This document shows positions 6,514 to 49,020 of a stretch of 64,000 nucleotides of DNA, in pieces. The notes beneath the pieces were generated by a model, which saw only the letters and a program-made list of their open reading frames with translations, was not told the origin of the DNA and did no database searches. Every line of letters starts with the position of its first letter. Within the stretch, counting starts at the first letter, position 1. Source of the stretch: a bacterium (GTDB lineage Bacteria; SZUA-79; Acidulodesulfobacterales; Acidulodesulfobacteraceae); the NCBI GenBank assembly GCA_021812245.1, contig JAKAOK010000001.1, positions 1 through 64,000 of the forward strand. Direction: 5' to 3'. Both the position numbers and the translations under genes were made by a program.

Positions 6514-6857
6514 ACCGCCAAACCTTCTTTTAAAGCGTAATTCGTTAAATATCCGGATTTATTTTTTCTTTCGTTTACTGTATCCAAAGACTGAATTATT
6601 ATATCGCTTAAAATGTGTAATTCCGCAAGCCTAAGTCCTATCTTGCCTCTGATGTGCCTTTTTGTATTAAAATCTATCGTTTTATCTATTATAATGTAAA
6701 AATCCCAGTCGCTGTCTTCATTGTAATCCCCCCTTGCACGCGAACCGAAAAGATAAACGGCTTCGACTTTAAATCCAGCTTTTTCTATTTCTTCCGCAAT
6801 TATTTGTTTTGCGATATTTAATATATAATCTTTAGTTTTCCATATGATAATTATTAT
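6510..6857 (-). pseudogene. MNT nucleotidyltransferase ORF without an ATG in frame
   Basis: Reverse frame reads KTKDYILNIAKQIIAEEIEKAGFKVEAVYLFGSRARGDYNEDSDWDFYIII...YALKEGLAV*; closely resembles 46865-47236; the only nearby ATG (6841-6843) is out of frame. Confidence 0.75.
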
Positions 6858-17705: not shown

Positions 17706-19241
17706 CTATCTTGTTTTAAGTTTTATAATCGTATTACACCCCTTTTTATAAATAACATTATATCGCTCTGAATTTTTAAGGGTATCAAATGTATTTAATA
17801 ACTTATCGTCCCTTCTTTTATTGTAGGGAATAAAGTAACATGTTGAAAATGCGATGTAATCTACATAATTAATGTCGTCAGGAAATACTGCAAGAAAATA
17901 CCTCTTGTACAAATGCGAGCCTAAAAAATTGGAAGCCGAAATGGAATAACCCGGCTTTATCGTTTCAAAAGTTTTACGAAGACTTTTAGGGTGCATGCCG
18001 TTTTTATACTTGTAATTTTGCATGTTAAAGATGTTAAATAAACCGAAATTAGAAATTGACGAATAATTTTGAATCAAGAACGTTAAGACTATTATAGATG
18101 CCGCAAAAATTATATTAAAACGCTCCCTTAAAAATTCAACTCTCGTCTCGCTTATAAAATCGGATGTGTTTTTCAATCCGTAAACCGCGGCTAATACAAA
18201 AAAAGGAACGGTAAAATACGAATACTGCATAATAAGAAACGGCTCATAATAATAAAAATGGTTTGGATAAAAGCTGACCAACCAGCAGACAAGCAAGGGC
18301 AGAACCGTAACCGTGAGCATTTTTTTTGAAAATAACGGCATAAAACCTAAAGCGGTAAGCAGATATAACAAAAACCTGAAATTATATTTGATATTTTGAA
18401 AGAGCGGGCCGACGACGGTGGAAGCTAAACCGATTAAATTAAACGCCTTAAGATATTTAATGACCTCGGTAAGTATTAAGTAGATAGGATGATCGGTGCC
18501 TACCCCCCATCTCCCTGTTAAATTTCCTTGAATATGGGGCAACATATAAAAAAGGGTGAAAAAACCGTATGCCCAAGCAACGGTTAACATTATAAATATA
18601 TATTTCTTTTTATAGCCGAGAAGAAACATAAAAACGGCTATAGACGATAGGTAGATAAAAGAATCCGCTTTAGTAACCAAAACTAAAAAAGAAAACAGGT
18701 ATAAGAGAAATATCTTTTTTTGATAAGCAAAATATAAAGCAAAGCTTATTAATGGAACATAAAAAACCGAAATATGGAAATCGTCCATATTGCCAGTGTG
18801 GATTTGCGGGTTAAGAAGAATAAGGAGCGGCCCTATAAATCCCCATTTATTTCCGAGCAAATTCCTGCTTATGTAATAAAAGGGAAATGCGCTTATCCCG
18901 ATAAGAAACGATTGCAGAATTAGAAAGAAAGAAACATGAGGAATAATTTTATAAATAAACCCTAACGGAATATATAGAATTTCGAAATATCCCTCTAAAA
19001 GACTTACATTGCTTAAACTCCCGTTAGCATTAAAAAAATAAAGATAACCCTTGGAAATAAGAAACAGCTCATGCATTTCAGCACCCAGATCCATTGTCGC
19101 CGCATTGAATGTTTCGTATTTTAAAATCGTGGCAATAGAAAATATTGCGGTATATAAGATACAAAATATTAAAGGAGTGCGATTGTTTTTTAATATTTCT
19201 TCTAGCCTGATAAACTTGCCGTCTAAATTAACTGCCCACAA
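17706..19241 (-). CDS. DUF2079-type multi-TM membrane protein
   Basis: ATMDLGAEMHELFLISKG...LNPQIHTGNMDDFHISVFYVPLISFALYFAYQKK. Confidence 0.75.
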   Translation of the reverse strand: MWAVNLDGKFIRLEEILKNNRTPLIFCILYTAIFSIATILKYETFNAATMDLGAEMHELFLISKGYLYFFNANGSLSNVSLLEGYFEILYIPLGFIYKIIPHVSFFLILQSFLIGISAFPFYYISRNLLGNKWGFIGPLLILLNPQIHTGNMDDFHISVFYVPLISFALYFAYQKKIFLLYLFSFLVLVTKADSFIYLSSIAVFMFLLGYKKKYIFIMLTVAWAYGFFTLFYMLPHIQGNLTGRWGVGTDHPIYLILTEVIKYLKAFNLIGLASTVVGPLFQNIKYNFRFLLYLLTALGFMPLFSKKMLTVTVLPLLVCWLVSFYPNHFYYYEPFLIMQYSYFTVPFFVLAAVYGLKNTSDFISETRVEFLRERFNIIFAASIIVLTFLIQNYSSISNFGLFNIFNMQNYKYKNGMHPKSLRKTFETIKPGYSISASNFLGSHLYKRYFLAVFPDDINYVDYIAFSTCYFIPYNKRRDDKLLNTFDTLKNSERYNVIYKKGCNTIIKLKTR

Positions 19242-19244
19242 AAC

Positions 19245-19637
19245 TTAAGCATCCCCCTTTTCTTTCGTATTTTCTTTTCTCTTAAGGTTTATCATTTCGA
19301 CAACCACCGTTTCAATTAGAAAATAATAAGTTATAATGGCAAAGCCGTTGGCAACACTTTCATTGCCGGATAAATCTAATATCATAGCAACGAACAAAAA
19401 AAACATAGCGCCTGATGCATAAGGTCTCGATATCCCGCCGTCTTTGAAAAATTTTAATTTATTGAAAAAATTATTTCTAATATAATACCTGACCCACAAA
19501 GAATACAATATGACTATAATTATTCCAAGCCACTGGAAAGCGAACCCCGCATGACCGTTAGCTATTCTAACTATCAAATCGACAGCAAACCCCACTCCGA
19601 TTAAATTTATAATTAAAAAAATGATATTATTTCGCAT
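19245..19637 (-). CDS. Small integral membrane protein
   Basis: 130 aa with about 4 hydrophobic segments; overlaps the upstream ORF by 11 bp. Confidence 0.6.
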   Translation of the reverse strand: MRNNIIFLIINLIGVGFAVDLIVRIANGHAGFAFQWLGIIIVILYSLWVRYYIRNNFFNKLKFFKDGGISRPYASGAMFFLFVAMILDLSGNESVANGFAIITYYFLIETVVVEMINLKRKENTKEKGDA

Positions 19638-22230
19638 TCAACCCTCTTAAAGTGAATAAATCTATTTTAAAGAAACTCTTATTTAATGATCTAATATAAT
19701 AAATGCCCTTTAAAAGATATAACTTTTTATAAATCCAACCGCCGCCGTTTTTAAATAAATCATTAAATTCTTGCTTGTTTTTTATAAACTCTCGCAATGA
19801 AATAAATTTTTTCCTTGAATGGTTTAAACTAACCAAAGGAGTTTTAATTGTATATTTTAGCAGGGTTTCATTTGATTTTTTAAAATTAAAAAACATTATG
19901 CTATTTTCTGCAATTTTAAAATGAATTTTTTTAAACTCATAAAGATTTAATCTATTTATTCTTTTAGGCATAATTTTTAGTTTAATTTCGTTTACATCAA
20001 ACAATTTGTTTTTTAATTGTTTTCCTCTTAAATAAATTAAGGTACACTTGCTCCCATTCAGGCTTATAATCCTGATAGGTAAAACAATTTGTCTGCCGGG
20101 ATTATGACTGTTAGAAATACTTGCTTTTAATTTAGCAAATTTTTTAAGGTCTTTTAATTTTTTATTTGAGTAAAATTTTATTAAAATATATTGAAAATTC
20201 TTTATATTTAAACTTTCAACCTTAAGGATAATAATTTTATTGAAATTATTCAGCGAAGATATTAGAAAAAACTTTTTATCTAATAACGACGCATAATTAT
20301 TCTCCTTCTCTTTCTCCTTTATGTTAACAATTTTATAATTTTCGTTCAGGATATACGATTTATTAAAAAAATTATATGGTCCAATTTTATTATACTTTTT
20401 TATAATATTTAAAATATTATTACAATTATGTGGCATAATCTTATTATTAACATTAGAAATGAATAAACCTGACAACGGATAATTATTATTTGATTTAGAA
20501 ATTAAAATTTCAGGATAAGTCTTCGGAATACCGTTAAAATAAAAATAAGATTTAATTTCTCCGGGTTTTTTATTGAATATAAATAGCTTTACCCTATGTA
20601 ATTTATGATAATTTCTGTAATATTGCTTACCGTAACAGTAATCGTCATTACCGCCTCTTAAAACAAGTTTATCGCTATTTTTTATTTCTTTATTATTGCC
20701 ATATAATATTATATTTAATATTGCTTTATCATAACTAAAATATTTATATAATTTTAAATTTTTAAAATTTATAGAGAAATAAGCGATTTTTTTATTTCTG
20801 GCGGCATTCGGTTCCGAAATAATATTTAATTTGATTGAATCAGATTTTATAGGTATAAGAATATTTTTATACCATATTTTTTTACGATGAAATAAATTTG
20901 CTATATAATCTGTCAAACCCTGCTTATGTATATAATGTCTATAGATAAAATAATAAAAAGCCCTGACAACCTTGTTGCGAATATGAGATATATGCTTTAT
21001 TCTTGTATTATAATCAAGCATAAAAATCTTCGTTACGGTATTATCGATAAAGTCCTTTTTAATGGTTTTTGACGGAATGGATTCTTTTCTGCCTTTTTTT
21101 ATTTGCTTTTTAAGTTCTTTTTTAAACACGGCGCTTCGTTGCATAAAATTCATAAAATATTTTTTAAGAATAAAGCTTTTAAAAATTTTTGCAAAGGATG
21201 AAATATTTGGCTTTATTAATTCTGAATCTGTAAATTTGACGCTTCCTTTTTTATTTTTAACAGTTTTATACGTAAAATCCGCTTTAATTAATTTAATATT
21301 ATTGCCTTTATTTTTCTTGTTTTTTAATATTTTATAAACATTTATTAATTCTCCGCTATATACGCCGAAACTTTTATAAAATTTTTTACCCTTGTATTCA
21401 TATTCAAATACGGCTTTTATATTATGAACAGTTCCAGTAACCGTATAATTAGGATAGAAATAAATATATTTATTTATTTTAATTTCAGGTTTTTTAATGC
21501 TTGGGAAATTCATAAGTTTTATATAGCCGTTATTTCTTATTTTTGCGATTATAATATGGCTGTTAAGTATATTAGCTTCAGGAATATTTATCGGGGTATA
21601 AAGTATTCTTTCGAGTTTATTTTTGGGAACAAAATTGATATAGAAAAGAAAAAAAGGGTTATCGCCGTTTTTAAAATTTGATATCGCCGAAGTAAACCTT
21701 AAATGTCTATAAGTCAGCTTGTTGAATTTATGCTTTTTAATGCTGTTTATATTTATCTTTCCTGTATAATAAAATAATTCGCTTCTTAATGATTTTAGCA
21801 ATAAGCTATTTTCATTGTTTTGATTTTTTCCGGTATTATCGATATTAAATAATATATTGGCTATTATATTTCTTTTGTAAAAATACTTTTTTTTAATATT
21901 TAAATATATCCCCAGCCTGTAATATCCACTTTTCTTTATTAAAATAGCTTTATTTACAACAGGTAGGCTTCTTGTTATTTCGCGATGGGTTATTATTTTA
22001 TATACTCTATAAACAATAAACAAAGCAAGAATTATTAAAGCCCATTTAAAAATTTTAAATTTATAATTCCAGCATGATAATACAAAATTTTTTGTTTTTA
22101 AAAATAGGCTTTTTATATTTTTATATATACTTTTATCTGTTTTCATAAAAATGTCAAGAATTTTATATAGATTTTTTATAAAAGGGTAGCTTAAGCCACA
22201 CCTTCTCCACTCTTGTTTGTACCCAAGCAA
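19627..22230 (-). CDS. Large Lys/Asn-rich protein with one N-terminal TM anchor, unknown function
   Basis: 867 aa continuous ORF; IFKWALIILALFIVYRVYKII anchor; no family recognised. Confidence 0.65.
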   Translation of the reverse strand: MLGYKQEWRRCGLSYPFIKNLYKILDIFMKTDKSIYKNIKSLFLKTKNFVLSCWNYKFKIFKWALIILALFIVYRVYKIITHREITRSLPVVNKAILIKKSGYYRLGIYLNIKKKYFYKRNIIANILFNIDNTGKNQNNENSLLLKSLRSELFYYTGKININSIKKHKFNKLTYRHLRFTSAISNFKNGDNPFFLFYINFVPKNKLERILYTPINIPEANILNSHIIIAKIRNNGYIKLMNFPSIKKPEIKINKYIYFYPNYTVTGTVHNIKAVFEYEYKGKKFYKSFGVYSGELINVYKILKNKKNKGNNIKLIKADFTYKTVKNKKGSVKFTDSELIKPNISSFAKIFKSFILKKYFMNFMQRSAVFKKELKKQIKKGRKESIPSKTIKKDFIDNTVTKIFMLDYNTRIKHISHIRNKVVRAFYYFIYRHYIHKQGLTDYIANLFHRKKIWYKNILIPIKSDSIKLNIISEPNAARNKKIAYFSINFKNLKLYKYFSYDKAILNIILYGNNKEIKNSDKLVLRGGNDDYCYGKQYYRNYHKLHRVKLFIFNKKPGEIKSYFYFNGIPKTYPEILISKSNNNYPLSGLFISNVNNKIMPHNCNNILNIIKKYNKIGPYNFFNKSYILNENYKIVNIKEKEKENNYASLLDKKFFLISSLNNFNKIIILKVESLNIKNFQYILIKFYSNKKLKDLKKFAKLKASISNSHNPGRQIVLPIRIISLNGSKCTLIYLRGKQLKNKLFDVNEIKLKIMPKRINRLNLYEFKKIHFKIAENSIMFFNFKKSNETLLKYTIKTPLVSLNHSRKKFISLREFIKNKQEFNDLFKNGGGWIYKKLYLLKGIYYIRSLNKSFFKIDLFTLRGLNAK

Positions 22231-22303
22231 ATATTTTTATAAATATAAACAAATGTTACGAAATAAATTATAAGAGCTATTCTTTTCGACAAGTTGATAA
22301 AAA

Positions 22304-23257
22304 CTAATCAATATTATAAAGCATTTTGATGTACTCAATCTCATTACTCAATCCTTCTTCTAAAGTAAACCGTGGATTAAAACCAAGTTCAGATTTTATT
22401 GAGCGCAAATCAGCTTCAGTTTTATATACGTCGCCTTTTTGAAAATTAGAATATAATCTTTTCAATTTTAGATTTGTTATATTTTCTATGACATTTATCG
22501 CCTGCTCCAATGAACACTTATTGCCGCCCCCTACATTATATATTCTTCCCGAAGGAGCGTTAATTGACAGCAAGGTTGCATCAATAATATCGCCTATATA
22601 TGTGAAGTCCCTCATCTGAGATCCATCTCCGTATATTTCGATCGGCAGTCCTTCTAAAGCACTTTTTATAAACTTGTGAAAAGCCATATCCGGCCTCTGT
22701 CCTTCTCCATAAACCGTAAAATATCTTAACATTACAGAAGGCATATTAAAATTTTTATAATATAAGTAGCATAAATTTTCGGCGGCAAGCTTTGTAACCC
22801 CGTACGGCGATACAGGACGCGTGAAAGAATTAACCTCATTTAAGGGAAAATCCTTTGTATCTCCATATACCGATGAAGACGACGCATAGATAAATTTTTT
22901 TATATTGCTATTCTTGGATGCTTCAAGTAGCATTTGGGTAGAAAGAATATTATTATTAAGATATATTTCGAATTCCTTTCCCCAACTAGATCTAACTCCG
23001 CCTTGTCCGGCTAAGTGAAAAACAACATCGATTTCTGTCAATAATTTATCCAAATCCAAATCGGGATCAATAAGATTTTTATTTATTAATTTAAAATTTT
23101 GATTTTTTATTATTTCATTAATGTTTTTATCTTTAATCCATTTCTCGTAATAATCTTCAAATGAATCAACCCCAACAACAATATTATTATCATGAATTAG
23201 TTTTTTGCAAAGACTGCTTCCTATGAAGCCTGCCGCCCCTGTTACCAGTATTTTCAT
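22304..23257 (-). CDS. NAD-dependent sugar epimerase/dehydratase (SDR)
   Basis: MKILVTGAAGFIGSSLCKKL; YASSSSVYGDT; YGVTKLAAE. Confidence 0.9.
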   Translation of the reverse strand: MKILVTGAAGFIGSSLCKKLIHDNNIVVGVDSFEDYYEKWIKDKNINEIIKNQNFKLINKNLIDPDLDLDKLLTEIDVVFHLAGQGGVRSSWGKEFEIYLNNNILSTQMLLEASKNSNIKKFIYASSSSVYGDTKDFPLNEVNSFTRPVSPYGVTKLAAENLCYLYYKNFNMPSVMLRYFTVYGEGQRPDMAFHKFIKSALEGLPIEIYGDGSQMRDFTYIGDIIDATLLSINAPSGRIYNVGGGNKCSLEQAINVIENITNLKLKRLYSNFQKGDVYKTEADLRSIKSELGFNPRFTLEEGLSNEIEYIKMLYNID

Positions 23258-23315
23258 CCCATCATCCTCCCCTTATTTTGATTTTTGCTTTTAAAATAAT
23301 AAATTAAATTCATAG

Positions 23316-26054
23316 TCAAACGTTATAATTACCTTTATTTTTCTTAAGAAAATAAAATATTACATATAGACCTATAAATGAGAATATAATTAAATCTAAA
23401 ATCAAGCCCAATATGAAATATTTCTGCAAAGAATACTCTATTAAAACATAATAATTTTTATTTTTTAAATTTTTAGAAGAAATTAAATAGCCGTTTGCAA
23501 ATCCATTTACAATAAAATGAATAGCAATATTTTTGCCTAAAAAAGAAGGAAAAACGTAGTAAATAAATTCTCTTAACTGTAAAGGGAAAAATCGTAGAGA
23601 ATTATTTACTCTCTTAGATATAATAACGGCGTTCCAATAAGGAAGAAAACCTTTGCCAAAAACTACAATAAAGCTTTTTTGATTTTTATCTTTTAATTTT
23701 ATTAGATATTGAGTATCGGAAAGCTTCTTATAATTTATAATATTATTAAAAGTACGCATAGAATTATTTTTGTTGATATTCAAAGAAGAATTATTTTTAT
23801 CATAAAAAATTAGGCAATAATTATGGAGAAGGTTGAGATTAAATTCCCTTATAGTCAATCCGCTGTGCATAATTTTAAAATAAGTACTTCTATTAATAAA
23901 TGATTTAATAATAAATATGCTCTGGTCAATGGGCAGCAATTTATTCAAGAAAGGAAGATAATTATTGCATTTAAGATAACCGGAAATATTTCTATTGAAA
24001 ACATTGCTTGTGATATTTAAATTATTATTCACTAAATTCAGATATTCCGAATCATAAATAAGAGGCTTTATATATTTTTTTTTCATGACATACAAATATA
24101 GACCTTCTACATATTTTTTAGATATTATTCCTTTTATTTTATTTAATTTATTTTTAATCAAATATCGATTAAAAATATAATAATTGCCCAAAAAATTTTT
24201 TAAATGCCAATTATAATCATTGTGAAATATAATATATTTCACGCCTAAATATCCCAAATAAATGAGCAACGTTTGTTTGCTTATGGAGGAAAAACCCTGT
24301 GATTTCTCAAAAGTTTTATATATCGACAGTTCCTCTAAATTAATTGAATCTCCCCCTGTATAACCGAAATAAACAGGGTATGGCCAAATGCTTTCGTCAA
24401 TCATGTCTCCTCCGCTATAGCCGCCCACATCCCCGTCTTTCTTTAACCATAATAAGTAAGTTGAGGAATTCAGATTGTAAGGCATTATAAAAATATTTCC
24501 ATACCCGTTTTTAAGCAATAACGTTTTGGTTTTATAATAGTAAGATGGGATTCTGAATCTTCCTTCACGAAAATGCCTATTCCCATTATTTATTATATTC
24601 CCATTAAAAAAAGGAAACATATATATAGGAAAAAGAAAAATAAAAAGAATTAATGAGAATATACTTTTAAACCGGAAACCTCCATATTTAAAAGCCGAAT
24701 AAAATCTATTCAACCCAAATCCAAATAAAATTGAACCGGATAAGGACAGGATAATCCCAAATTTTATTATATTGGTAGAAAAAGCCTCCATGAAAAAAGG
24801 TAGGTTCTTAGTGATATAAAACAAACATTTTCCTAAAAAACTGCCTTTAGCATTGATAAGTAAACCGACAAATAAAAAAATGAAGAGAAAAAAAACAATA
24901 TTATTTTTTTTTTGATTTTTATCATAAAAATTAAATAAAATAATTCCTAATATAATAAAAAAAATGGGAATAAAACTTAGAAAAATAAAAAACCCCGATT
25001 TATAAACCGGGGACCATTTATAATAAAGCAAAGATTTACTGAAACTGCCAAACATAGCCCAGAAGCCAGTTAATCGTTCGATATTAAGAATGGCCAGGCT
25101 GTTAAGGATATAATTATAGTATGCACCTCCAAAATTTTGAATCTTTAAATATGAAAATTTGCTCATGGAAGAGAGATTCAAAAAAAATGGTATAAACCAG
25201 TATAAATTTAAAATAAAGAAAAATATCAAAAAAATAGAGGTAAACCGAATTGCTAAATATAATTTTTGTTTATTTTTAAAATTAAAGTAAAAATAGAATA
25301 CAAAATAAGCAAAAATCAATAATAATTGATTAATTAATAGGACTGGATTAGCATAAGCATAATCGCCAATCAAAAACCAAAACGAGGCATACAATATCGG
25401 TTCGATTATTTTTTTAGAATTATTTATTCCTTTTATATATAAAGCCAGAATTAATGGGGCTAAGGAGTATGCAGGGGATATTAATCCCCCGGATTGCGTA
25501 GAGAAATAGATAGTCAACGATAACGGGTTCATCATATAAAACAACGAAGCAAAAAATCTCCCGTAACTATTTACTTCATTAATCGAACATAAATAATACA
25601 TAGATAATCCAGAGGATAGAAACCAGAATACAAACAAGAATTTTTCATAATCAATTATAGACAAGCCTATAAATTTAAACGCCACTCCACCAATTGCGAA
25701 AGGTATCAAAAAAGCCGATACGCCGGGACTTAAAATTCCAGAACCCACATCGGACATAAAAGAACTGAACGAATTATTAAATAATTTAACAGCGGACAGC
25801 CAGAATCCGTAATCTGCCGTATCAATGTAATTATTGCCTCTAAACCATAAAAGAGGAAGGAAAGAAATAATAAAAATTAATAAGATATCTATTCTCTTTA
25901 AAACCCCTCCGAAAAAATTGAGGTAATATTCTTTGGCTTTAAAAATTTTATAAATATTATTTATCATATCCCGCATTTCTTTTAATTGTTTATTATTTGA
26001 AATTGATTTCATAAAAGTAATTAAAAATAAATATTTTATATAATTGAAAAGCAT
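23316..26054 (-). CDS. Large multi-TM membrane protein (GT-C/YfhO-like)
   Basis: 912 aa, about 12 TM segments plus a soluble C-terminal domain; listed start overlaps asnB by 62 bp, so a downstream Met (MINNIYKIF) may be the true start. Confidence 0.65.
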   Translation of the reverse strand: MLFNYIKYLFLITFMKSISNNKQLKEMRDMINNIYKIFKAKEYYLNFFGGVLKRIDILLIFIISFLPLLWFRGNNYIDTADYGFWLSAVKLFNNSFSSFMSDVGSGILSPGVSAFLIPFAIGGVAFKFIGLSIIDYEKFLFVFWFLSSGLSMYYLCSINEVNSYGRFFASLFYMMNPLSLTIYFSTQSGGLISPAYSLAPLILALYIKGINNSKKIIEPILYASFWFLIGDYAYANPVLLINQLLLIFAYFVFYFYFNFKNKQKLYLAIRFTSIFLIFFFILNLYWFIPFFLNLSSMSKFSYLKIQNFGGAYYNYILNSLAILNIERLTGFWAMFGSFSKSLLYYKWSPVYKSGFFIFLSFIPIFFIILGIILFNFYDKNQKKNNIVFFLFIFLFVGLLINAKGSFLGKCLFYITKNLPFFMEAFSTNIIKFGIILSLSGSILFGFGLNRFYSAFKYGGFRFKSIFSLILFIFLFPIYMFPFFNGNIINNGNRHFREGRFRIPSYYYKTKTLLLKNGYGNIFIMPYNLNSSTYLLWLKKDGDVGGYSGGDMIDESIWPYPVYFGYTGGDSINLEELSIYKTFEKSQGFSSISKQTLLIYLGYLGVKYIIFHNDYNWHLKNFLGNYYIFNRYLIKNKLNKIKGIISKKYVEGLYLYVMKKKYIKPLIYDSEYLNLVNNNLNITSNVFNRNISGYLKCNNYLPFLNKLLPIDQSIFIIKSFINRSTYFKIMHSGLTIREFNLNLLHNYCLIFYDKNNSSLNINKNNSMRTFNNIINYKKLSDTQYLIKLKDKNQKSFIVVFGKGFLPYWNAVIISKRVNNSLRFFPLQLREFIYYVFPSFLGKNIAIHFIVNGFANGYLISSKNLKNKNYYVLIEYSLQKYFILGLILDLIIFSFIGLYVIFYFLKKNKGNYNV

Positions 26055-27849
26055 TATTCTTCTTTAAAGCTAAATGTTCATAGAATAAATTTTCTATATA
26101 ATTCTTATTAAAAAAATTATGGCTGAAATTCAAAAGCACATTTTCAAATACTTTATTCAATTCATCCCGAATCCATTTATCCATAGGAACCCCGAAACCC
26201 AATTTTTTCCTGTAAACTAAGTCTTTCGCATAGTATTGGGAGGCAATTTTTTTTAATATATATTTCCCCTTATTTCCTCTTATTTTCCATTTACCGCTAA
26301 GACTAAAAACAAATCTGGTCAAATCCTTATTTAAGAATGGGGTTCTGCTTTCTAGAGAATTTGCCATTGTAGCAATATCAGCTTTTACCAAATAGCTGTC
26401 CGGTAATTGAATGAGGCAATCCAACAATAATGATTTATTTATAAAATCATTAGTTAAAAAACTATCATAAAAAGATTTAGCATCTTCAAAAATTCTATCC
26501 TCATCAGCAAATAAATGAAAATCTTTATTCATCAGATTTTTTATTTCCTCGGCTTTAAAACTGCTAAAACTAAACTGCCTGGCGTAAAAAGGCTTGTTAA
26601 ACCCGTAAAGTAAACTATTCAACAAAACGTTTTTTTTAAAAAAATGATGGCCGTATTTTGCTAAAATTGAAAGAAAATTAAATTTTTCGATAAGATATTG
26701 GGCTCTATATTTCGTATAACCGCCAAATAATTCATCCCCTCCGTCGCCTGTTAATGCGACGACAATATGGTTTTTTGAAAACTTAGCAAGATAATATAAT
26801 GGGATTATGGCATGGTCGGCCATAGGCTCATCCAAATAATTTATTATTTCCGTAAAATTTTTCTCTACTAAAGCATTTTCGAAATAGCATAATTCACATT
26901 CTACGCCAGCCATTTCGGCGATTTTCATCGCGTATTTCGATTCATCTATGGTGGGAGAATCCTTGTATGAAATTGAAAATGCTTTTATATCATTAGAAAT
27001 TTCTGATGCATATTTCAACACAAGGCTGCTATCAATCCCTCCGCTTAAAAAAATGCCGATAGGAACATCGGAAACAAGTCTTCTTCTAACCGATTGTTTT
27101 AATAATCGTTCCGACTCAAATAATATATCTTTTTCTGAATTATAAATATTTTCATTATATTTATCTTCAAAATAAAAAAATTTTCGTTTGTCCTTTAACA
27201 TCCAATTCCTAATATCAAACACAAAAGATGTCCCTGCCTCTAATTTTTTAATTTTGTCATATATTGTATGGGGGGAAGGAATATATCCGTAATAAAGAAA
27301 CTTTAGAAGCGATAAATGATCTATGAGAAGTATATTTTTTATGGATTCATGTTTTATAATGGCTTTTAATTCCGAACCAAAAATAAAATTATAATTATCA
27401 AAATAATATAAGAAGGGTTTTTCGCCATAAATATCTCTAGCGCAAAAAATTGAATTTTGTTTTAGGTCATAAATTGCGAAAGCAAACATCCCATCAATTA
27501 ATTCTGTTACCTTTTCTCCATATTCAATATAACAATTCAATAAAACTTCCGTATCGGAATTTGTTGTAAATATATGACCTCTTTTAATTAAGTTATTTTT
27601 TATTTCCTGATAATTATATATCTCACCGTTAAAAACTATTACAAACTCTTGGTTTTTGCTTACCATTGGCTGATTAGACGTATCCGAAAGATCAATAATT
27701 TTTAGCCTTCTATGTCCCAGAATTACATTATTCCTATAATAAATGCCTTGCGCATCCGGACCTCGTTTTTCTAACGTGTCCAACATTACCTTGAAATTGT
27801 TTCTTTCTATTTCATGGTTACGGTTAACCTGTCCTAATATGCCGCACAT
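25993..27849 (-). CDS. asnB: Asparagine synthase (glutamine-hydrolysing)
   Basis: MCGILGQVNRNHEIERNNF; GHRRLKIIDLS; GIFLSGGIDSSLVLKYA; LTGDGGDELFGGY. Confidence 0.9.
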   Translation of the reverse strand: MCGILGQVNRNHEIERNNFKVMLDTLEKRGPDAQGIYYRNNVILGHRRLKIIDLSDTSNQPMVSKNQEFVIVFNGEIYNYQEIKNNLIKRGHIFTTNSDTEVLLNCYIEYGEKVTELIDGMFAFAIYDLKQNSIFCARDIYGEKPFLYYFDNYNFIFGSELKAIIKHESIKNILLIDHLSLLKFLYYGYIPSPHTIYDKIKKLEAGTSFVFDIRNWMLKDKRKFFYFEDKYNENIYNSEKDILFESERLLKQSVRRRLVSDVPIGIFLSGGIDSSLVLKYASEISNDIKAFSISYKDSPTIDESKYAMKIAEMAGVECELCYFENALVEKNFTEIINYLDEPMADHAIIPLYYLAKFSKNHIVVALTGDGGDELFGGYTKYRAQYLIEKFNFLSILAKYGHHFFKKNVLLNSLLYGFNKPFYARQFSFSSFKAEEIKNLMNKDFHLFADEDRIFEDAKSFYDSFLTNDFINKSLLLDCLIQLPDSYLVKADIATMANSLESRTPFLNKDLTRFVFSLSGKWKIRGNKGKYILKKIASQYYAKDLVYRKKLGFGVPMDKWIRDELNKVFENVLLNFSHNFFNKNYIENLFYEHLALKKNNAFQLYKIFIFNYFYEINFK

Positions 27850-27868
27850 ATTATAAATTCCATACTAA

Positions 27869-28384
27869 TTAACTGATTAATTTTTCTAAAACTTCCGGTT
27901 CGAACCTGAATCTGATATGTTTAGCTGGGACACCCCCCACTATTTCGAATGGCAAAACATCCCTAGTAACAACCGCATTGGCCCCGACAATAGCACCCTT
28001 ACCTATTCGCACGCCGGGTAAAATGACAGCATTACATCCTATCCATACATCGTCTTCTATTAATATTAAAGAATATATCACGCCGGAAGAATGAATCGGG
28101 GTATCCGCCAAGTCGAATCTATGCTGCGATGAAAGTATATTAACATTATTACCGATTAAAACATAATTCCCTATCTTGACGCCTCCCTGACCCCCGATAA
28201 CCACATCATGGTTAATATTTACAAAACTTCCTATTTCAATATTATGAGGCGATTTAAATTGGCATTTCGAGAATATATAAACTTTTTTTCCGATCCCTTT
28301 AAGGAATATACCCCAGAATAATGAACGCAATCTTGCCTTGCTAAAAATAAACCAATTATACATTCTTAAAATTAAATAAACCAT
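27869..28384 (-). CDS. Hexapeptide-repeat acyltransferase
   Basis: IEIGSFVNINHDVVIGGQGGVKIGNYVLIGNN...DDVWIGCNAVILPGVRIGKGAIVGANAVVTRDV. Confidence 0.9.
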   Translation of the reverse strand: MVYLILRMYNWFIFSKARLRSLFWGIFLKGIGKKVYIFSKCQFKSPHNIEIGSFVNINHDVVIGGQGGVKIGNYVLIGNNVNILSSQHRFDLADTPIHSSGVIYSLILIEDDVWIGCNAVILPGVRIGKGAIVGANAVVTRDVLPFEIVGGVPAKHIRFRFEPEVLEKLIS

Positions 28385-41651: not shown

Positions 41652-41833
41652 TCTTAATCGTTCCTTATTTATTCCGGATTAAATATTTGTTAATAAATAT
41701 ATAATATTAAACCAGCTTTGTCAATAAAAATATCCCCCCCAGCCCTTGCAATTCAAGCGGTTAGAAGGAAAGGGGGGCACCTTTTTTTCATTTTTTTATG
41801 ATAGGTCGCTCCCGAAAACGGCATCAGATTTAT

Positions 41834-43102
41834 TTAATTTCCAAAGAGCCGCCTTGACGGTATCATCCAGATGCCCGGTTCCGCAATCTTGCCTATCCTG
41901 TCGCCGTTATAGATTAAAAGCCCGCCGCCCCATAATTTGCCAAGACCATCTGCTACTGCTTTCATTGGTCTTAAATCCGAAGCGGCTGCCGTGCCGCGAT
42001 TTTTAATTTCTATCCCTATTATTCTTTCGTTAATCTTTAAAAGCATATCTAATTCTAATCCTGAGCGGGTTCTATAAAAATACATCGAGGCAGGTCTTTG
42101 CATTGTTTTGATCCATTTGTAAATTTCCGAAATTACCAAAGTTTCGAATATATCGCCGGAAATCACGTCACCCCAAAAACCGGTCATTTGTCTTAACAAG
42201 CCTAAGTCGAGCCAGTAAATCTTGGGGGTTTTTACCGCGGAACTGGTTATATTTGCACCGTAAGGCTGAAGCAGTATAGTTTGATAAGATATCTTCAGAT
42301 ACTCTAAGTATCTCTTCGAGGTATCCACGCTTATACCGGCATCGCGCGCCAGTTCAGAATAATTGAGCAGTTTTGCATTTCTTAAAGCCGCGAGCGTTTG
42401 AAATTTTTTAAAAGGTTCCAAATCTTCCAACCTTGACAAATCGGCGAGATCTCTTTCTAAATATGTATAAGTATAATCCCTGAGCCATTTTTGCCTTTCA
42501 TCTGCCTTTTTAATACTTAAAAGGAACGGCATTCCGCCCCATCTCAATAAGTGCTTCTGCGCTTCTTTTAATTTTATGTCGTCCTCTCCTATTAAAACAG
42601 ATGGGAGATTTTTCATTAGTTTTTGAAAGTCTTCTTCTTCAAGAATGCGGTCGAGAATCGGCGGCTTAACGCTTTTAGCCCCTGCTCCGGCATATATCTC
42701 TGACATCATTAACGGCCACAGTTCGTAAAGGGATATTCTTCCCGCCAGAGATTCCCTTATCTTTTTTAGTAAAAGAATCTGGCTTGAGCCGAGAAGCACT
42801 TCGAAGTCGAGCTTTCCTTCGTCATAGGCATATTTAACTTTCTCAAACAAGGAGGGTTCTTTCTGCGCCTCGTCAAGTATAGCTTTACCGACGTCTCTAT
42901 GCCAGTTTGAAGCGGGAATCTGCGAAATGCCGTCCCGTATTTCGGGAGAATCCAGATTTATATACCGCAACGCATCATACTTATTTTTTGCCAGAGTGGT
43001 CTTTCCCGTCTGGCGGGCACCGGTTATTAAGACTATTTTTTTTTCTTTTTCGGAGGGCAAAAAATTGTATATTGCCCTAAAATACTGTAAATCTTCGCTC
43101 AT
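41834..43102 (-). CDS. AAA_14/DUF4143 ATPase
   Basis: VLITGARQTGKTTLAKNKY P-loop; C-terminal GLELDMLLKINERIIGIEIKN (PD-(D/E)XK-like). Confidence 0.9.
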   Translation of the reverse strand: MSEDLQYFRAIYNFLPSEKEKKIVLITGARQTGKTTLAKNKYDALRYINLDSPEIRDGISQIPASNWHRDVGKAILDEAQKEPSLFEKVKYAYDEGKLDFEVLLGSSQILLLKKIRESLAGRISLYELWPLMMSEIYAGAGAKSVKPPILDRILEEEDFQKLMKNLPSVLIGEDDIKLKEAQKHLLRWGGMPFLLSIKKADERQKWLRDYTYTYLERDLADLSRLEDLEPFKKFQTLAALRNAKLLNYSELARDAGISVDTSKRYLEYLKISYQTILLQPYGANITSSAVKTPKIYWLDLGLLRQMTGFWGDVISGDIFETLVISEIYKWIKTMQRPASMYFYRTRSGLELDMLLKINERIIGIEIKNRGTAAASDLRPMKAVADGLGKLWGGGLLIYNGDRIGKIAEPGIWMIPSRRLFGN

Positions 43103-43110
43103 AATAGTAA

Positions 43111-43139
43111 ATTTTACAGTATATTTTAGGATATGTCAA
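43111..43139 (-). promoter_or_regulatory. Sigma70-like promoter for ATPase 41834-43102
   Basis: Reverse strand TTGACA - 17 nt - TAAAAT; spacer contains ATATACTG. Confidence 0.65.
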
Positions 43140-43295
43140 TAAAATGATGGATAAATTCATAAAACTTCTTAAAAAGAAAAAGGGCAGGCACATTTTTCAT
43201 TTTCTTATGCGCATTATAAGTCGTCAATAAAAAGGCTAAAATCTCTTCGTCCGTAAGTTTATTCAAACCTTTCCGAACGGAATATCCAACGCTGC

Positions 43296-44510
43296 CTATA
43301 ATTCCGACTTTTCTACCATATAGTGCCGGAGAAATAAAACATTGCATCCGCCTATAGATAAAGAACCTGCTATATTTGAATTTAAAATAATGCCTTTATC
43401 GGGATTATACTTCTGGATGAAACTACGGAAAGACTTGGAAACGGAAGGTTTTGAAAGTTTAGACTTTACTTCGACGGGCAATTTGTCGTCTATTATAAAG
43501 TCTATTTCCGCCCCGCTTTTACTCCTGTAATATTTTACGCTCTTGTCATTCTCGTAAAACGCCCTGAATATATAATTTTCGAATAACGCTCCCTTGTCTA
43601 TCCTGTCGTCTATTAGTTTAAAATCTCCAAGTATGGCATTTCTAATCCCTAAATCCATAAAAAAAACTTTAGGATTTTTGGAGATTTCTATCCGCTTATT
43701 GGAAAAATAAGGAGTAACGAACTTTACCAGAAAAAGTTTTTCGAATACGGAAAGTATCAGCTTTGTTTTATAATAATCCAGTCCGCTGACCGCCGCAAGC
43801 TCGTTATAAACGGCTATATTGCCTATCTGCAAAGCAAGAGCCTTCAAAAGTTTATAATACTGCGTTTCATCCGCTAAAGATACTAAATCCTTTATGTCTC
43901 GCAATAAATAGATATTGACGATATTTTTCAGAACTTCTTTTTTTTCTTCGTCGTCATTTGCAAGCAAAATACGCGGATACCCGCCGTAAACCAGATAGCT
44001 TAACAAATATTTATAAATCTTTTTATTAATTTGCTCCGAAAATTTATCTCCATCGGTAAATATATTGTAGAGGGGTTTGTCCACAGCCGATAAAAACTCA
44101 GAAAAACTGAAGGAATAAAGATAAAAAACAAAAATACGTCCCGCCAGATACTTAATTGCTTCTATACTCAAATTCATAGCGGAAGATCCGCTTATTAAAA
44201 GTTTTTTTCCGACCGAAGTATCGTATATATACTTTAATTTCTTTCCGCCCTCTTTCGCGTATTGAAACTCGTCGATGAATATCGTTTTATAAGGCTCGAT
44301 ATAAAGTTTTGCAAAACTTTTAATATCCTCTTCGAATAAAAGTTTTAATTCTATATCCTCAAAAGTTAAAAAAACCGCATCTTTTGATTCTTCATAAATT
44401 TTTTTTAGAAGCGTGGTTTTCCCGACTTGTCTCGGTCCAAGAACGGCAATGATTTCCGGTTTATCTATATAGGCTTTTATTTTGTCTTCCAGATCTCTTT
44501 TATAATACAT
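43296..44510 (-). CDS. AAA_14/DUF4143 ATPase
   Basis: IAVLGPRQVGKTTLLKKIYE; IFIDEFQYAKEGGKKLKYIYD; SGAEIDFIIDDKLPVEVKSK. Confidence 0.9.
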   Translation of the reverse strand: MYYKRDLEDKIKAYIDKPEIIAVLGPRQVGKTTLLKKIYEESKDAVFLTFEDIELKLLFEEDIKSFAKLYIEPYKTIFIDEFQYAKEGGKKLKYIYDTSVGKKLLISGSSAMNLSIEAIKYLAGRIFVFYLYSFSFSEFLSAVDKPLYNIFTDGDKFSEQINKKIYKYLLSYLVYGGYPRILLANDDEEKKEVLKNIVNIYLLRDIKDLVSLADETQYYKLLKALALQIGNIAVYNELAAVSGLDYYKTKLILSVFEKLFLVKFVTPYFSNKRIEISKNPKVFFMDLGIRNAILGDFKLIDDRIDKGALFENYIFRAFYENDKSVKYYRSKSGAEIDFIIDDKLPVEVKSKLSKPSVSKSFRSFIQKYNPDKGIILNSNIAGSLSIGGCNVLFLRHYMVEKSEL

Positions 44511-44547
44511 ATAAACATATAAACCAGATAAAATATTATTTATTTTT

Positions 44548-44576
44548 ATTTTAGCAGGGGAAAAATTTTATGTCAA
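44548..44576 (-). promoter_or_regulatory. Sigma70-like promoter for ATPase 43296-44510
   Basis: Reverse strand TTGACA - 17 nt - TAAAAT. Confidence 0.65.
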
Positions 44577-44709
44577 TGAATTTTTGTATAATACTCTCCA
44601 AAAACTGGACTGAGGTCTAAGGTGTAAGGAATTCTCCATACGGCTATATCTATATCCGAACCTTCAACAAATTCTAGGGTGGCTAACAAACCAAATAAAA
44701 CTGCTTTTT
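44573..44709 (-). pseudogene. MNT nucleotidyltransferase fragment with degraded active site
   Basis: Reverse frame KKAVLFGLLATLEFVEGSDIDIAVWRIPYTLDLSPVFGEYYTKIH*; GS replaced by GL. Confidence 0.65.
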
Positions 44710-44713
44710 TTGC

Positions 44714-44727
44714 ATAGTGTAAAATAT
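44714..44727. repeat. IS-terminus-like motif atagtgtaaaatat
   Basis: Reverse-complement match to 13293-13305 region; also at 47311-47324. Confidence 0.5.
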
Positions 44728-44774
44728 TTTATTTATAAAATTTTACTGCAGTATAATCTTACTTTATTGGTTCG

Positions 44775-46145
44775 TTATAATTCTTTAACCGCTTTCTCTA
44801 TATCGTTTATGTCCATTTTAATAATTCCTTTTGAAACATTATGGGCAAAGACTTTATCTTCGAAACCGGATTTGCTTATAAAGGCGGTGATTTGCTTTCT
44901 TTTGTCTTTTACGTAACTGCATTTCTTTAAAAAATTATCTATATCATTCGTAGAAGTTTTTCTATTGCGCCATTTGCATTCGATTAATAAGACGGCATCT
45001 TTGCTTTCGCCTATTACGTCTATTTCATAAACTTCTTTAGAGCCGGGAATTTTACCCCAATGCTTTCCGACCGAATCCGGAAAAAAAGGAATAAGATTTG
45101 CTTTATATAAATAAGGAATAATCGATTTTATAATTTCTTCGAATATCCTGCCCGTAAATTCGTTTATATTTTTAACGGCAAAATTGAATGCGGCTTCCGG
45201 ATTAAATTCCATTTTATCTATATTAGAATAAATGTAATTAAACCAGAAATTTAAAAAATTGTCTTTTATTCTGTAACGTGCGCCGCGTTTAGAGCCGCTA
45301 AGCTTATTTTCGATTTTTTCGATTATTGCGTAATAGTCGGAAAGCTCGCTAATATACTTCATGACCTTTGTTCTTTCCATTCCGGTTCTATCGACTATCT
45401 CGCCGATGTCCCTGTCGAAACAACCTATCTTTTCCAAAATGGAAAAATATCCCGGATGTTCCGAACCGAACTCCCCTATTAAAAGATTTTTACCTTCTTC
45501 TTTTAGCGGCGCAAACTCATCGAAGAATAGATTTTTAAGTTGCTTTTTGAAATCGTCTTTGGCCTTAAGGTACCATAGGTATTTTGGAATACCCCCGAAC
45601 ACCGAGTATGCGTTTACTATTTCTTCTATCCGGTATCCAAATGAGTCCAGCATTTTTACCGCTTCTTTAAAATCGAATTCTTTTAAAGCAATTTGATAAG
45701 AACTTCTTCCGAAAAGAGGCTCTTTATAGTCCAAAAATATACGTTTCATCATGCCGGTGTAAGAACCGCAGAGTATTAAAATAACTTTTGAACCAATGTC
45801 GTCCCAGACTTTTTGGAGAATAGAAAATACCGAATTATCGACCCTTATAAAATTTTGAAATTCGTCTATTATAACGGTGCCGTTATTATTCAAAAGATGC
45901 CTGAAAAACGCTTCCCAGTTATCAAAAACCCCATCGAATATCTGGCTTGAAAAATCTTTAAGAAGGGTTTCCTTTGACCTTGTGTCAACAAATAAGTATT
46001 TTGCCGAAGGAAAAACATATTTCAAAAGCGTCGTTTTGCCGATTCTTCTCCTGCCGTAAACGACAACCATCTGTTTTTCGTCCTTCTGCCCCAGTTTTCC
46101 GAGAAATTCTTTTTCTTTTGTTCTGTCGAAAAATTCCATTAACAA
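44775..46145 (-). CDS. P-loop ATPase with C-terminal DUF234-type nuclease-like domain
   Basis: MVVVYGRRRIGKTTLLKYVF; EIDVIGESKDAVLLIECKWR. Confidence 0.9.
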   Translation of the reverse strand: MLMEFFDRTKEKEFLGKLGQKDEKQMVVVYGRRRIGKTTLLKYVFPSAKYLFVDTRSKETLLKDFSSQIFDGVFDNWEAFFRHLLNNNGTVIIDEFQNFIRVDNSVFSILQKVWDDIGSKVILILCGSYTGMMKRIFLDYKEPLFGRSSYQIALKEFDFKEAVKMLDSFGYRIEEIVNAYSVFGGIPKYLWYLKAKDDFKKQLKNLFFDEFAPLKEEGKNLLIGEFGSEHPGYFSILEKIGCFDRDIGEIVDRTGMERTKVMKYISELSDYYAIIEKIENKLSGSKRGARYRIKDNFLNFWFNYIYSNIDKMEFNPEAAFNFAVKNINEFTGRIFEEIIKSIIPYLYKANLIPFFPDSVGKHWGKIPGSKEVYEIDVIGESKDAVLLIECKWRNRKTSTNDIDNFLKKCSYVKDKRKQITAFISKSGFEDKVFAHNVSKGIIKMDINDIEKAVKEL

Positions 46146-46223
46146 TCCAATATAAAATATAAATTATTAAATTTATAAATATCTCGTATCTTTTATTTAA
46201 GCTTCGCCGCCGAAGCATATTTG

Positions 46224-46262
46224 TATACTTTGCAGTATATTATTTATCAGTATACTATACTG
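46224..46262. promoter_or_regulatory. Twin palindromes (candidate operators)
   Basis: TATACT-TTGC-AGTATA (46224-46239) and CAGTATA-C-TATACTG (46248-46262). Confidence 0.6.
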
Positions 46263-46276
46263 CTCCCCTTTGTCAA
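46249..46276 (-). promoter_or_regulatory. Sigma70-like promoter for ATPase 44775-46145, -10 inside a palindrome
   Basis: Reverse strand TTGACA - 16 nt - TATACT. Confidence 0.65.
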
Positions 46277-46711
46277 GACAATTTTTTTATATATTTTTGC
46301 ATCAGGAGGCTACGCGACTTCTACATCCGCTACTTCCTTAATCGCAAAAAATATTCTTTTAAAACTTGGAGTAAAGAAATCCGGCATAATCGTGGAAGAC
46401 AGAAGCTTTGATACCGCGCAGAACGCGTTATATACCGCAATGATTTGTAAAAAGAACAAATTTAAAAGAATAATCTTGGTCACGTCGGCTTACCATATGC
46501 AACGTGCAATGTTTCTTTTTAAAAAGGCTTTCAAAAAAACCGGAACCGGCATAATTCCATATCCAACCGATTATAAGAGCAATTATTCCTATAACTTTTA
46601 CAGTTTTATGCCCGGCCTCGGCAGCCTGACTATTTCTGGCGAAGCAATCCACGAGTATCTGGGCATAATTTATTACAAATTTATAAATAAATATGATTAT
46701 TGAATACAAGG

Positions 46712-46740
46712 ATTAAAGGGGTCAGATTTATTTATTTTTA
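46712..46740. repeat. AT-rich junction repeat, copy C (inverted)
   Basis: attaaaggggtcagatttatttattttta; one mismatch to the reverse complement of copy B over about 28 nt. Confidence 0.8.
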
Positions 46741-46769
46741 AAGAAGAGTCGTCCGGTTTTTTGATAAAA

Positions 46770-46868
46770 TCAACGGCTATTATACTCAAATAGTTCAGAT
46801 AGTTTTTTACCGTCTTTAAAATCTTCTTCTGCGACTAAAAATAGGTCTTTAGCTGACTTTTTACTCAT
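46770..46868 (-). pseudogene. HEPN-like ORF truncated to 32 aa
   Basis: MSKKSAKDLFLVAEEDFKDGKKLSELFEYNSR*; overlaps MNT ORF by 4 bp in the usual MNT-HEPN arrangement. Confidence 0.6.
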
Positions 46869-47236
46869 AAAGACTTGCCTTCATTTAATGCATAATAATC
46901 TAAATAACCGATATCATGATTTTTTTCTTTCCATTTTTTTGCAGATGCAATAAAAATATCGTTAGATGTTTTATTCATTACAGCCAACCTTCTGCGAATT
47001 TTCACGGACATGTCCCATTTTAATTGTCCTTCTATCCCTTTATCGGTAACAACAAAAAAATCCCAGTCGCTGTCTTCGTTAAAATCCCCTCTTGCACGGG
47101 AACCGAACAGGTAAACGGCTTCTACTTTATAGCCGTATTTTTCTATTTCTTCGGTTATTATGCTTTTAGCCGTTTTAAGTATGTTTGAGGATTCTTCCTC
47201 ATAATCTTTGTAATATTGCATGGTTCCGTTAATCAT
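46865..47236 (-). CDS. MNT-type nucleotidyltransferase antitoxin
   Basis: KVEAVYLFGSRARGDFNEDSDWDFFVVTD. Confidence 0.85.
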   Translation of the reverse strand: MINGTMQYYKDYEEESSNILKTAKSIITEEIEKYGYKVEAVYLFGSRARGDFNEDSDWDFFVVTDKGIEGQLKWDMSVKIRRRLAVMNKTSNDIFIASAKKWKEKNHDIGYLDYYALNEGKSL

Positions 47237-47396
47237 AATTTATTATTATAAATCCATAAATTTAATTAAATTATAACATAAAAACGGATTTTTTATTAAG
47301 CGGATATTAGATAGTGTAAAATATTTAGAAAGGAGTATCAAAAAACTTGACGGTATCTTTTATTAAGATATATATTGATATTAATAAATCTAAATA

Positions 47397-48692
47397 TTAC
47401 CGCAATGCCCATTTCCAAAACGGCGTTACGTTAATATTTATACCCTTGTAAACAAAATGGTCTTCGATATCGTATGTTATAACGATACCTTCCTTCAATC
47501 CTATAGATTCGGCTGCTTCAACCAAGCCTTCGAATTCCCTATCCCTGTTTGAGTCGTTAAGTTCGTAGCAAACCTGAAAGACCGAAAAGGCGGCACTTTT
47601 GGATACGATAAAATCGCATTCCCTTTTGCCTTCGAAGTAGAATATTTCGTCGTAATTTTTTTTAAGTTCTATAAAAGTTAAATTTTCGAGCAGCCTTCCG
47701 GAATCGGGCGACGTAGTCCTTTTGCATAATCCGTTATCGGCAAGATATATTTTGGCTGGGTTCCTCATTCTTTTATAAACGGATTCGGTAAACTTTCTCG
47801 TTTCGTATATCAGCATGCTATCCAAAAAATAATTATAATAGGAATACAGGGCGTCTTTGGAAAACGGAAAATTATCTTTGTATTGCCTGTACACCGAAGC
47901 AAGCGAAAGCTTGGTCGAAAACGAGGAAAAAAGTTTGTTTTTTAAAGCGTCTATCAGCTTTATGTTTTTTACGTCAAATCTTTCTACAAGATCCTTAAAA
48001 AACATTGCGTCTAAATATTCCCTTAACAACTTCGTCTTTTCGAATTCCGAACCGGCAAGGATTATTTCAGGGAATCCTCCGTATTGTAAATATTCGCTTA
48101 GATATTTTTTTATAACTATTTTAGTATCGCCGTAAAATATATCGGGGGGTTTTATATTACGGCTGTAGCCGCCTAATTTTAACTCGAGAAGTTCTTTAAA
48201 GGAAAACGGAAATGTTTCGACGCTCCACGATCTTCCCCTTAAAGAAGTGTTAATTTTGTAGGGAGTAATTTTAGACGACGAGCCTGCGCAAAAAATATGG
48301 ATATTTTCCTTCTCCGCCATTCTTCTTGCGAACTTTTCCCAGTTTGCTATATTTTGAATTTCGTCGAATAAGAAATATACATTGTTTTTGTCGTTTATAA
48401 GATGCGGGTTTAATTCAAAAAAAGCGCTTCTTACATACTCCATGTCTTCCGTTTTAATATCGCTAAGCCTTTCGTCTTCGAAATCGATATACAACGATGA
48501 ATCGGGGTGTTTTTTAAAGATATCGTATAAAATAAAACTCTTGCCGCTCCTTCTCACCCCGTATAAAATAACTGCCTTATTGATATTGTCGGGTGGGAGC
48601 GGGATATTTCTTCGGGATATTATATCCGGTAAATTAATAATGAATTTTTTATTTTCGGTTATTATTTCTTTTAGTAATTCTTTACTCGGCAT
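47397..48692 (-). CDS. AAA_14/DUF4143 ATPase
   Basis: VILYGVRRSGKSFILYDIF; YFLFDEIQNIANWEKFARRM; GKRECDFIVSKSAAFSVFQVCYEL. Confidence 0.9.
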   Translation of the reverse strand: MPSKELLKEIITENKKFIINLPDIISRRNIPLPPDNINKAVILYGVRRSGKSFILYDIFKKHPDSSLYIDFEDERLSDIKTEDMEYVRSAFFELNPHLINDKNNVYFLFDEIQNIANWEKFARRMAEKENIHIFCAGSSSKITPYKINTSLRGRSWSVETFPFSFKELLELKLGGYSRNIKPPDIFYGDTKIVIKKYLSEYLQYGGFPEIILAGSEFEKTKLLREYLDAMFFKDLVERFDVKNIKLIDALKNKLFSSFSTKLSLASVYRQYKDNFPFSKDALYSYYNYFLDSMLIYETRKFTESVYKRMRNPAKIYLADNGLCKRTTSPDSGRLLENLTFIELKKNYDEIFYFEGKRECDFIVSKSAAFSVFQVCYELNDSNRDREFEGLVEAAESIGLKEGIVITYDIEDHFVYKGININVTPFWKWALR

Positions 48693-48776
48693 AATTTAGA
48701 CAAAAATTTTTAACCTTGCGGCATTTAATCATGCGGCAAAACAATCCATTTATTTTTAATTATTTCAAATTTAATT

Positions 48777-48826
48777 ATCCTTCATTAAAGGATATAATAA
48801 CATAAACTAATCCTTTATGGAAGGAT
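48777..48826. promoter_or_regulatory. Twin 17-bp near-palindromes upstream of ATPase 47397-48692
   Basis: atccttcattaaaggat (48777-48793) and atcctttatggaaggat (48810-48826), centres 33 bp apart. Confidence 0.6.
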
Positions 48827-49020
48827 AAATTTTAACCTTAATCCTGCAATAAAAAATATTTAAATGCTCATATTTTACGTAAATACCTTTAATTCTACTT
48901 TAATTCAGAGATTCGTGCTACCGTCGAAATTTTCTGGTTTTCTCGCCCAAATTCCGATTTAGGAAATCGATTTGCATAATTCATAGTTAGCCTGTATAAT
49001 TACGATAACTTATATTTATT

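Follow-up and report, generated by a model that had tools for sequence, protein, structure and literature searches.

Probable single-gene ATPase cassettes of the PDC-S01 and PDC-S27 families, and the inverted repeats at their promoters, in a bacterial gene array

PDC-S01 is a catalogued but unvalidated single-gene defence candidate that combines an ATPase with a PD-(D/E)XK domain (PMC12988326), and it is reported to rank fourth among prokaryotic defences by frequency (PMC12988326). The literature searched contained no study of the binding or activity of its members, nor any description of their operators or cassette borders. PDC-S27 is likewise a catalogued single-gene candidate that awaits validation, and since the two families are known in this form, the four ATPase genes described below are not a new four-gene system.

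These genes lie within what is referred to throughout as the window, the whole stretch of 64,000 nucleotides that was analysed, which is bases 1-64000 of contig C22 of a draft genome (1.78 Mb, 87% complete); the accompanying phylum-level search covered 30 genomes, all from one family. The array is flanked on one side by a glycosyltransferase cluster and on the other by a PAS histidine kinase, beyond which lies the dnaJ-dnaK side. An earlier sequence-only reading had described four same-strand P-loop ATPases in 7 kb, interleaved with broken toxin-antitoxin and DUF218 genes, and indeed all four open reading frames are present on the minus strand:

41834-43102, minus: ATP1, 422 aa, AAA_14 ATPase with predicted winged helix and DUF4143 PD-(D/E)XK, PDC-S01
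43296-44510, minus: ATP2, 404 aa, AAA_14-DUF4143 with ExK intact, PDC-S01
44775-46145, minus: ATP3, 456 aa, ATPase_2-DUF234 with ExK intact, PDC-S27, likely start ATG at 46139
47397-48692, minus: ATP4, 431 aa, AAA_14-DUF4143 with a degenerate nuclease motif (QVC for ExK), PDC-S01
46221-46703, plus: DUF218 gene remnant, its N-terminal part gone beside the ATP3 promoter
46770-46868, minus: truncated HEPN gene, 32 codons
46865-47236, minus: MNT nucleotidyltransferase, antitoxin-like, reading frame intact
46715-46734, plus: REP-like repeat AAAGGGGTCAGATTTATTTA, exact copy
41817-41836, plus: diverged copy of the REP-like repeat AAAGGGGTCAGATTTATTTA, 3 mismatches, at the ATP1 stop codon

The interleaved genes are broken in part. 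The DUF218 gene matches Pfam positions 28-133 of 133 and lacks roughly the first 130-140 residues of its 260-280-aa relatives, while the HEPN gene, intact at 133 aa on contig L078 of the related genome G003, lacks in the window about 305 bp between two AGTTTTTT repeats. The MNT reading frame is whole, but the MNT/HEPN pair is broken. The traces of insertion sequences that had been reported in the array amount to the two REP-like repeats listed above. The repeat has 4 matches in the window against 0.03 expected and 32 copies in the genome at up to 2 mismatches, many of which surround the single Y1 (RAYT-like) transposase gene of the genome, on contig C25 around 18704-28202; these repeats and the transposase gene look like a REP/RAYT system. 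An Rfam search of the window gave no match. Elsewhere in the window, further genes resemble toxin-antitoxin components: 230-1023 matches HEPN and MNT weakly, and PIN domains are encoded at 2069-2467 and at 4505-4903. There are also a stretch at 6673-6803 with 81% DNA identity to part of the array MNT gene, which is probably a second MNT remnant, and a Mutator-family transposase fragment at 12488-12847.

As regards the families, the assignments made from the letters alone are confirmed by Pfam, in which ATP1, ATP2 and ATP4 score above cut-off for AAA_14 and DUF4143, and ATP3 for ATPase_2 and DUF234. PADLOC models of PDC-S01 are matched over their full length by ATP1 (PDLC04790, 5e-81), ATP2 (PDLC04789, 5e-83) and ATP4 (PDLC04787, 9e-88), and the PDC-S27 model likewise by ATP3 (E 6e-43). 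The P-loops differ from one protein to the next (GARQTGKTT, GPRQVGKTT, GRRRIGKTT and GVRRSGKS, from ATP1 to ATP4), as do the C-terminal motifs (GIEIKN, VEVKSK, LIECKW and FQVCYEL in the same order), exactly as had been stated. Walker A and Walker B are intact in the PDC-S01 members of the array, as judged from the Pfam matches and from conserved alignment columns. In an alignment of 98 ATP1 homologues, Walker A, Walker B (D77, E78) and R122 are invariant or at least 90% conserved, and the same is true of a putative catalytic set made up of E320, D352, E365 and K367; a single alignment mixing all subfamilies proved too diverse for a locus scan. The PD-(D/E)XK catalytic residues are thus present by sequence in ATP1 and ATP2, and the D...ExK pattern is retained in both ATP2 and ATP3. 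In ATP4 and two distant relatives the D is kept and E-x-K is replaced by Q-x-C, N-x-S and Q-x-C (Q-V-C in ATP4 itself). In other words, since the relatives share the loss, the oddity of ATP4 is a trait of its subfamily.

The earlier suggestion that these C-terminal signatures are nuclease-like is borne out by fold prediction as well as by conservation. An AlphaFold2 model of ATP1, built on the 98 sequences from the window and related loci, has a mean pLDDT of 94.9 (an earlier model from 9 sequences had reached 45), and it predicts with high confidence an AAA+ domain, a winged helix and a PD-(D/E)XK domain. Among solved structures the model matches, among others, the archaeal ATPase 2qen, DNA-bound Orc1/Cdc6 and the PD-(D/E)XK proteins Can2 and VC1899, with low TM-scores (about 0.2-0.5) that support the assignment of the fold and not membership of the matched families. 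A sequence search for a solved structure of any DUF4143 protein found none.

The four genes appear to be independent of one another. A DNA search within the genus places orthologues of ATP1, ATP2 and ATP3 at unrelated loci with 81-98% DNA identity, apart from the other array genes, and one of ATP4 on a single contig of a relative. For ATP1 and ATP2 the borders of the shared DNA are sharp. At six other ATP1 loci, with 84-98% identity, homology begins no more than about 20 bases from the stop codon; where the loci extend as far as the 5' end, it stops at or just past TTGACA, the -35 box. At four loci orthologous to ATP2 the stop codon is its exact starting point. The junctions showed no target sequence in common, and no linked antitoxin or second gene moves along with the cassettes. 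The ATPase genes have dN/dS values of about 0.07-0.13, which is purifying selection, and their cassettes are carried on 324 plasmid records. A phage origin is not supported, since relatives are scarce among phage records and viral contigs account for 22 loci. Nor are the REP-like repeats proposed as the mover, for they flank some copies yet genome-wide do not follow the ATPase genes.

The turnover of the array itself can be read from contig L078 of G003, which is 98.9% identical to the window over ATP4. It carries ATP4 beside the same kinase, an MNT gene whose HEPN partner is intact, part of ATP2 and one additional AAA_14 gene, and it lacks ATP3 and DUF218 in between. The array therefore changes one gene at a time. 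Several copies of the kinase are present in the G003 bin, with three versions of the kinase region on contigs C5, C42 and C71 (L063, L078 and L064), and the bin may mix strains, though a comparison made contig by contig is untouched by this. What lies upstream of the histidine kinase is variable: the site is occupied by a spermidine-synthase operon in four genomes, one of them from another genus, by a radical-SAM gene in one genome, and by a different PDC-S01 gene with MNT and HEPN on C5 of G003. Kinase loci L072-L074, which have no HSP70 genes nearby, were dropped from this comparison. A stretch between ATP4 and the kinase (48824-48886) recurs at many places in the genus genomes and may be a regulatory element or a small repeat.

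Clustering of these ATPases is, as proposed in the sequence-only reading, other than random. The host genome has 7 DUF4143 matches in 1.78 Mb, three of them inside the array, and across the family's genomes 17 DUF4143 pairs are no more than 5 kb apart where 1.16 would be expected (P about 1e-14), or 15 against 1.05 when the host genome is excluded, on a simple null of uniform placement and with related genomes that are not independent. Convergent pairs of DUF4143 genes also recur in G004, G013 and G014 (L039-L045, L075, L076, L086). As for a defence-type island, the site upstream of the kinase does vary between genomes; around ATP1 relatives (80 loci in diverse bacteria) PADLOC hits are similar in number within 2 kb and beyond 5 kb, with no clear excess of known defence genes close by. 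Overall, then, the earlier interpretation is partly supported.

The upstream regions of the four genes contain promoter-like and palindromic elements, all on the minus strand:

43111-43139, minus: ATP1 promoter, read from sequence, TTGACA at 43134-43139, 17 bp spacer, TAAAAT at 43111-43116
43084-43120, minus: ATP1 dyad, a candidate operator, ACTGTAAA-N21-TTTACAGT, overlapping the -10 box, start codon and codons 4-7
44529-44576, minus: ATP2 promoter, TTGACA at 44571-44576, 17 bp spacer, TAAAAT at 44548-44553
46224-46276, minus: ATP3 promoter region, TTGACA at 46271-46276, CAGTATA-G-TATACTG at 46248-46262, TATACT-GCAA-AGTATA at 46224-46239
48776-48826, minus: ATP4 upstream inverted repeats, TATCCTT-N5-AAGGATA at 48776-48794 and ATCCTT-N5-AAGGAT at 48810-48826

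It is the ATP1 dyad that is most informative. Across the ATP1 group it has the 35-bp consensus CTGTAWAWTT-N15-AAWTWTACAG with fixed spacing, and it takes in the -10 box, start codon and first codons. When anchored on the protein alignment of the group, its arms agree at 7.9 of 10 positions if correctly spaced and at no more than 4.1 if slid by up to 6 bases; three of the 19 sequences lack it in good form at the expected spacing. Over 17 distinct sequences drawn from several phyla, pairing between the arms holds in 80.5% of cells as against 72.3% after shuffling, a value reached in none of 500 shuffles, and the covariation score likewise exceeds all 500. Double changes affect 8 of the 13 pairs; immediately outside the core, for instance, four sequences have C-G in place of A-T. 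The dyad is also confined to one kind of gene. Its exact 37-bp form occurs at six places in 16 genus genomes, always where an ATP1-type gene starts, and a control pattern, the same form reversed, has zero occurrences in these genomes. Of eight distant genomes, six contain the 35-bp form once each and two do not contain it, and every occurrence is at an ATP1 orthologue, though other members of the family are present in those genomes.

A site that is found at one kind of gene only and is carried between phyla requires that its binding protein travel too. As the cassette holds a single gene, the encoded protein is the only candidate binder, and ATP1 has a predicted winged helix. Since cassette and dyad travel together, the likeliest reading is autoregulation by the ATPase's own winged helix, which suggests that ATP1-type genes control themselves via a private predicted operator. 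The ATP1 start codon is close to the expected transcription start. Because the upstream arm of the dyad contains the -10 box, that arm is probably not transcribed, and a DNA operator is accordingly favoured over an RNA hairpin.

The ATP2 promoter contains TAAAATA-N11-TATTTTA (44529-44553), which is short, AT-rich and weak alone. Arms of the TATACT-N4-AGTATA kind, with altered loops, recur before several DUF234 genes other than ATP3. The outer part of the ATP4 upstream repeats lies inside sequence that is repeated elsewhere in the genus, which makes its link to ATP4 uncertain. When 142 non-identical ATPase genes whose upstream DNA is free were set against 200 other genes from the same loci, an upstream inverted repeat beyond dinucleotide-preserving shuffles (p < 0.05) was found in 38% of the former and 5% of the latter, and repeats with z > 4 in 21% and 2% (Mann-Whitney P = 4e-18); the enrichment persists when counted over protein clusters (40 ATPase against 175 control, P = 6e-6). 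The cores of the repeats follow the subfamily, examples being TGGGATAA for spirochaetes and, for clostridia, CGACTAAT or GACTAAT. The genes that pass are a minority at that 38%, ATP2, ATP3 and ATP4 have weaker repeats than ATP1, and in other subfamilies some repeats may be terminators or attenuators.

Taken as a whole, the array is rather probably to be explained as four independent, horizontally moving single-gene cassettes, three of PDC-S01 and one of PDC-S27, with self-regulating promoters. Each cassette encodes a single protein in which an AAA+ NTPase of the STAND/Orc1-Cdc6 kind is joined to a winged helix and a PD-(D/E)XK domain, and the genes have promoters of their own with inverted repeats. 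Presumably the protein uses its winged helix to bind its own operator and keeps its own expression down, such that the nuclease is scarce. Upon invasion an ATP-dependent change could free the promoter, and the freed nuclease could then attack the nucleic acid of the invader or of the cell; ATP4 might act through binding only. A self-repressed, ATP-dependent nuclease acting on invasion is the best-supported candidate mechanism. A hint at function, albeit an indirect one, comes from Thermus thermophilus HB27, where RNA of the AAA_14-DUF4143 gene TT_P0211 rises 6.6-fold with a plasmid present in Argonaute-positive cells (PMC4406477). That effect needed Argonaute, and other induced genes lie by CRISPR loci (PMC4406477), so that it may be indirect. 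The Thermus megaplasmid DUF4143 gene TT_RS11170, which may be the same gene as TT_P0211, has inverted repeats before its start, among them TGCCATCTC-cctga-GAGATGGCA.

Several rival explanations have to be set against these self-regulating cassettes. That the ATPases form one multi-gene defence system, acting together, as the suggestion of a single undescribed system would have it, is highly improbable: four same-strand genes in 7 kb do invite the idea, but they belong to two catalogued candidate families (PMC12988326), the set is not conserved and its orthologues stand apart, ATP1 and ATP2 have promoters of their own, and a near-identical contig does without ATP3 and has ATP2 only as a fragment. 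Passive clustering, on the other hand, concerns location alone and is compatible with the cassette explanation; it holds that a tolerant intergenic site gathers cassettes and debris with no link between neighbours. It is a real possibility, though one we would not favour, in that the stretch before the kinase varies within the genus and turnover is evident from the broken copies of DUF218 and HEPN and from the REP-like repeats, while close pairs of the same family recur elsewhere in several genomes.

The nature of the cassettes may also be read differently. They could be selfish or addiction-type elements, whose nuclease cuts DNA that lacks the cassette or punishes its loss and whose self-repression limits harm to the host. 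This is unlikely, even with sharp-ended single-gene cassettes at many loci, plasmid carriage, many copies per genome and toxin-antitoxin genes as neighbours, given that the junctions share no target, nothing such as an antitoxin travels along, and ATP4 keeps its place despite a degenerate nuclease. That same degeneracy, with the operator-like repeats, the winged helix and the Orc1/Cdc6-like fold matches, would fit the proteins being regulators and not effectors, that is, STAND-like transcription factors or DNA-maintenance ATPases with PD-(D/E)XK as a binding module. We consider this very doubtful, for a mere binding module would not need a catalytic set at least 90% conserved in 98 homologues, and the ATP1 dyad occurs at no other gene.

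If the self-repressing cassette were general, PDC-S01 and PDC-S27 would be very common self-contained immune switches of one gene, one protein and one private operator. Their AAA+ and winged-helix parts would couple sensing to self-repression and nuclease action, an invader would at once lift the repression of the gene and switch on its enzyme, and the cassettes would spread and build up one at a time. This wider proposal is tentative, and we would sooner doubt than assert it. A private operator per gene would give, for each protein, a short DNA that it should bind and that could be used as a reporter for the trigger. Were this confirmed, a large anonymous family would become tractable and a general design for single-gene defence modules would be indicated.

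Among known systems, the MNT/HEPN module is represented in the array by its MNT gene and a HEPN remnant and is intact in a close relative; the window copy of HEPN is truncated, however, and the module is not part of the ATPase cassettes. The CRISPR ancillary nucleases of the Can2/VC1899 type resemble the ATP1 model in fold, presumably through PD-(D/E)XK, but no CARF ring-nucleotide sensor domain was found and sequence identity is about 11%. The archaeal STAND-like ATPases (2qen PAB2304, and 2fna, the latter by profile) and Orc1/Cdc6 combine AAA+ and winged helix and give the best matches to the ATP1 model, albeit with TM-scores of 0.25-0.48; ATP1 differs in having a C-terminal PD-(D/E)XK instead of their other domains. 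PDC-S27 is matched in full by ATP3, whose promoter bears the TATACT/AGTATA palindromes common to several other DUF234 genes of the family. PDC-S01 is a single gene for ATPase and PD-(D/E)XK (PMC12988326) to which ATP1, ATP2 and ATP4 correspond over their full length, ATP4 differing by the absence of the ExK motif. What is new here is the set of inverted repeats at the promoters of PDC-S01 genes.
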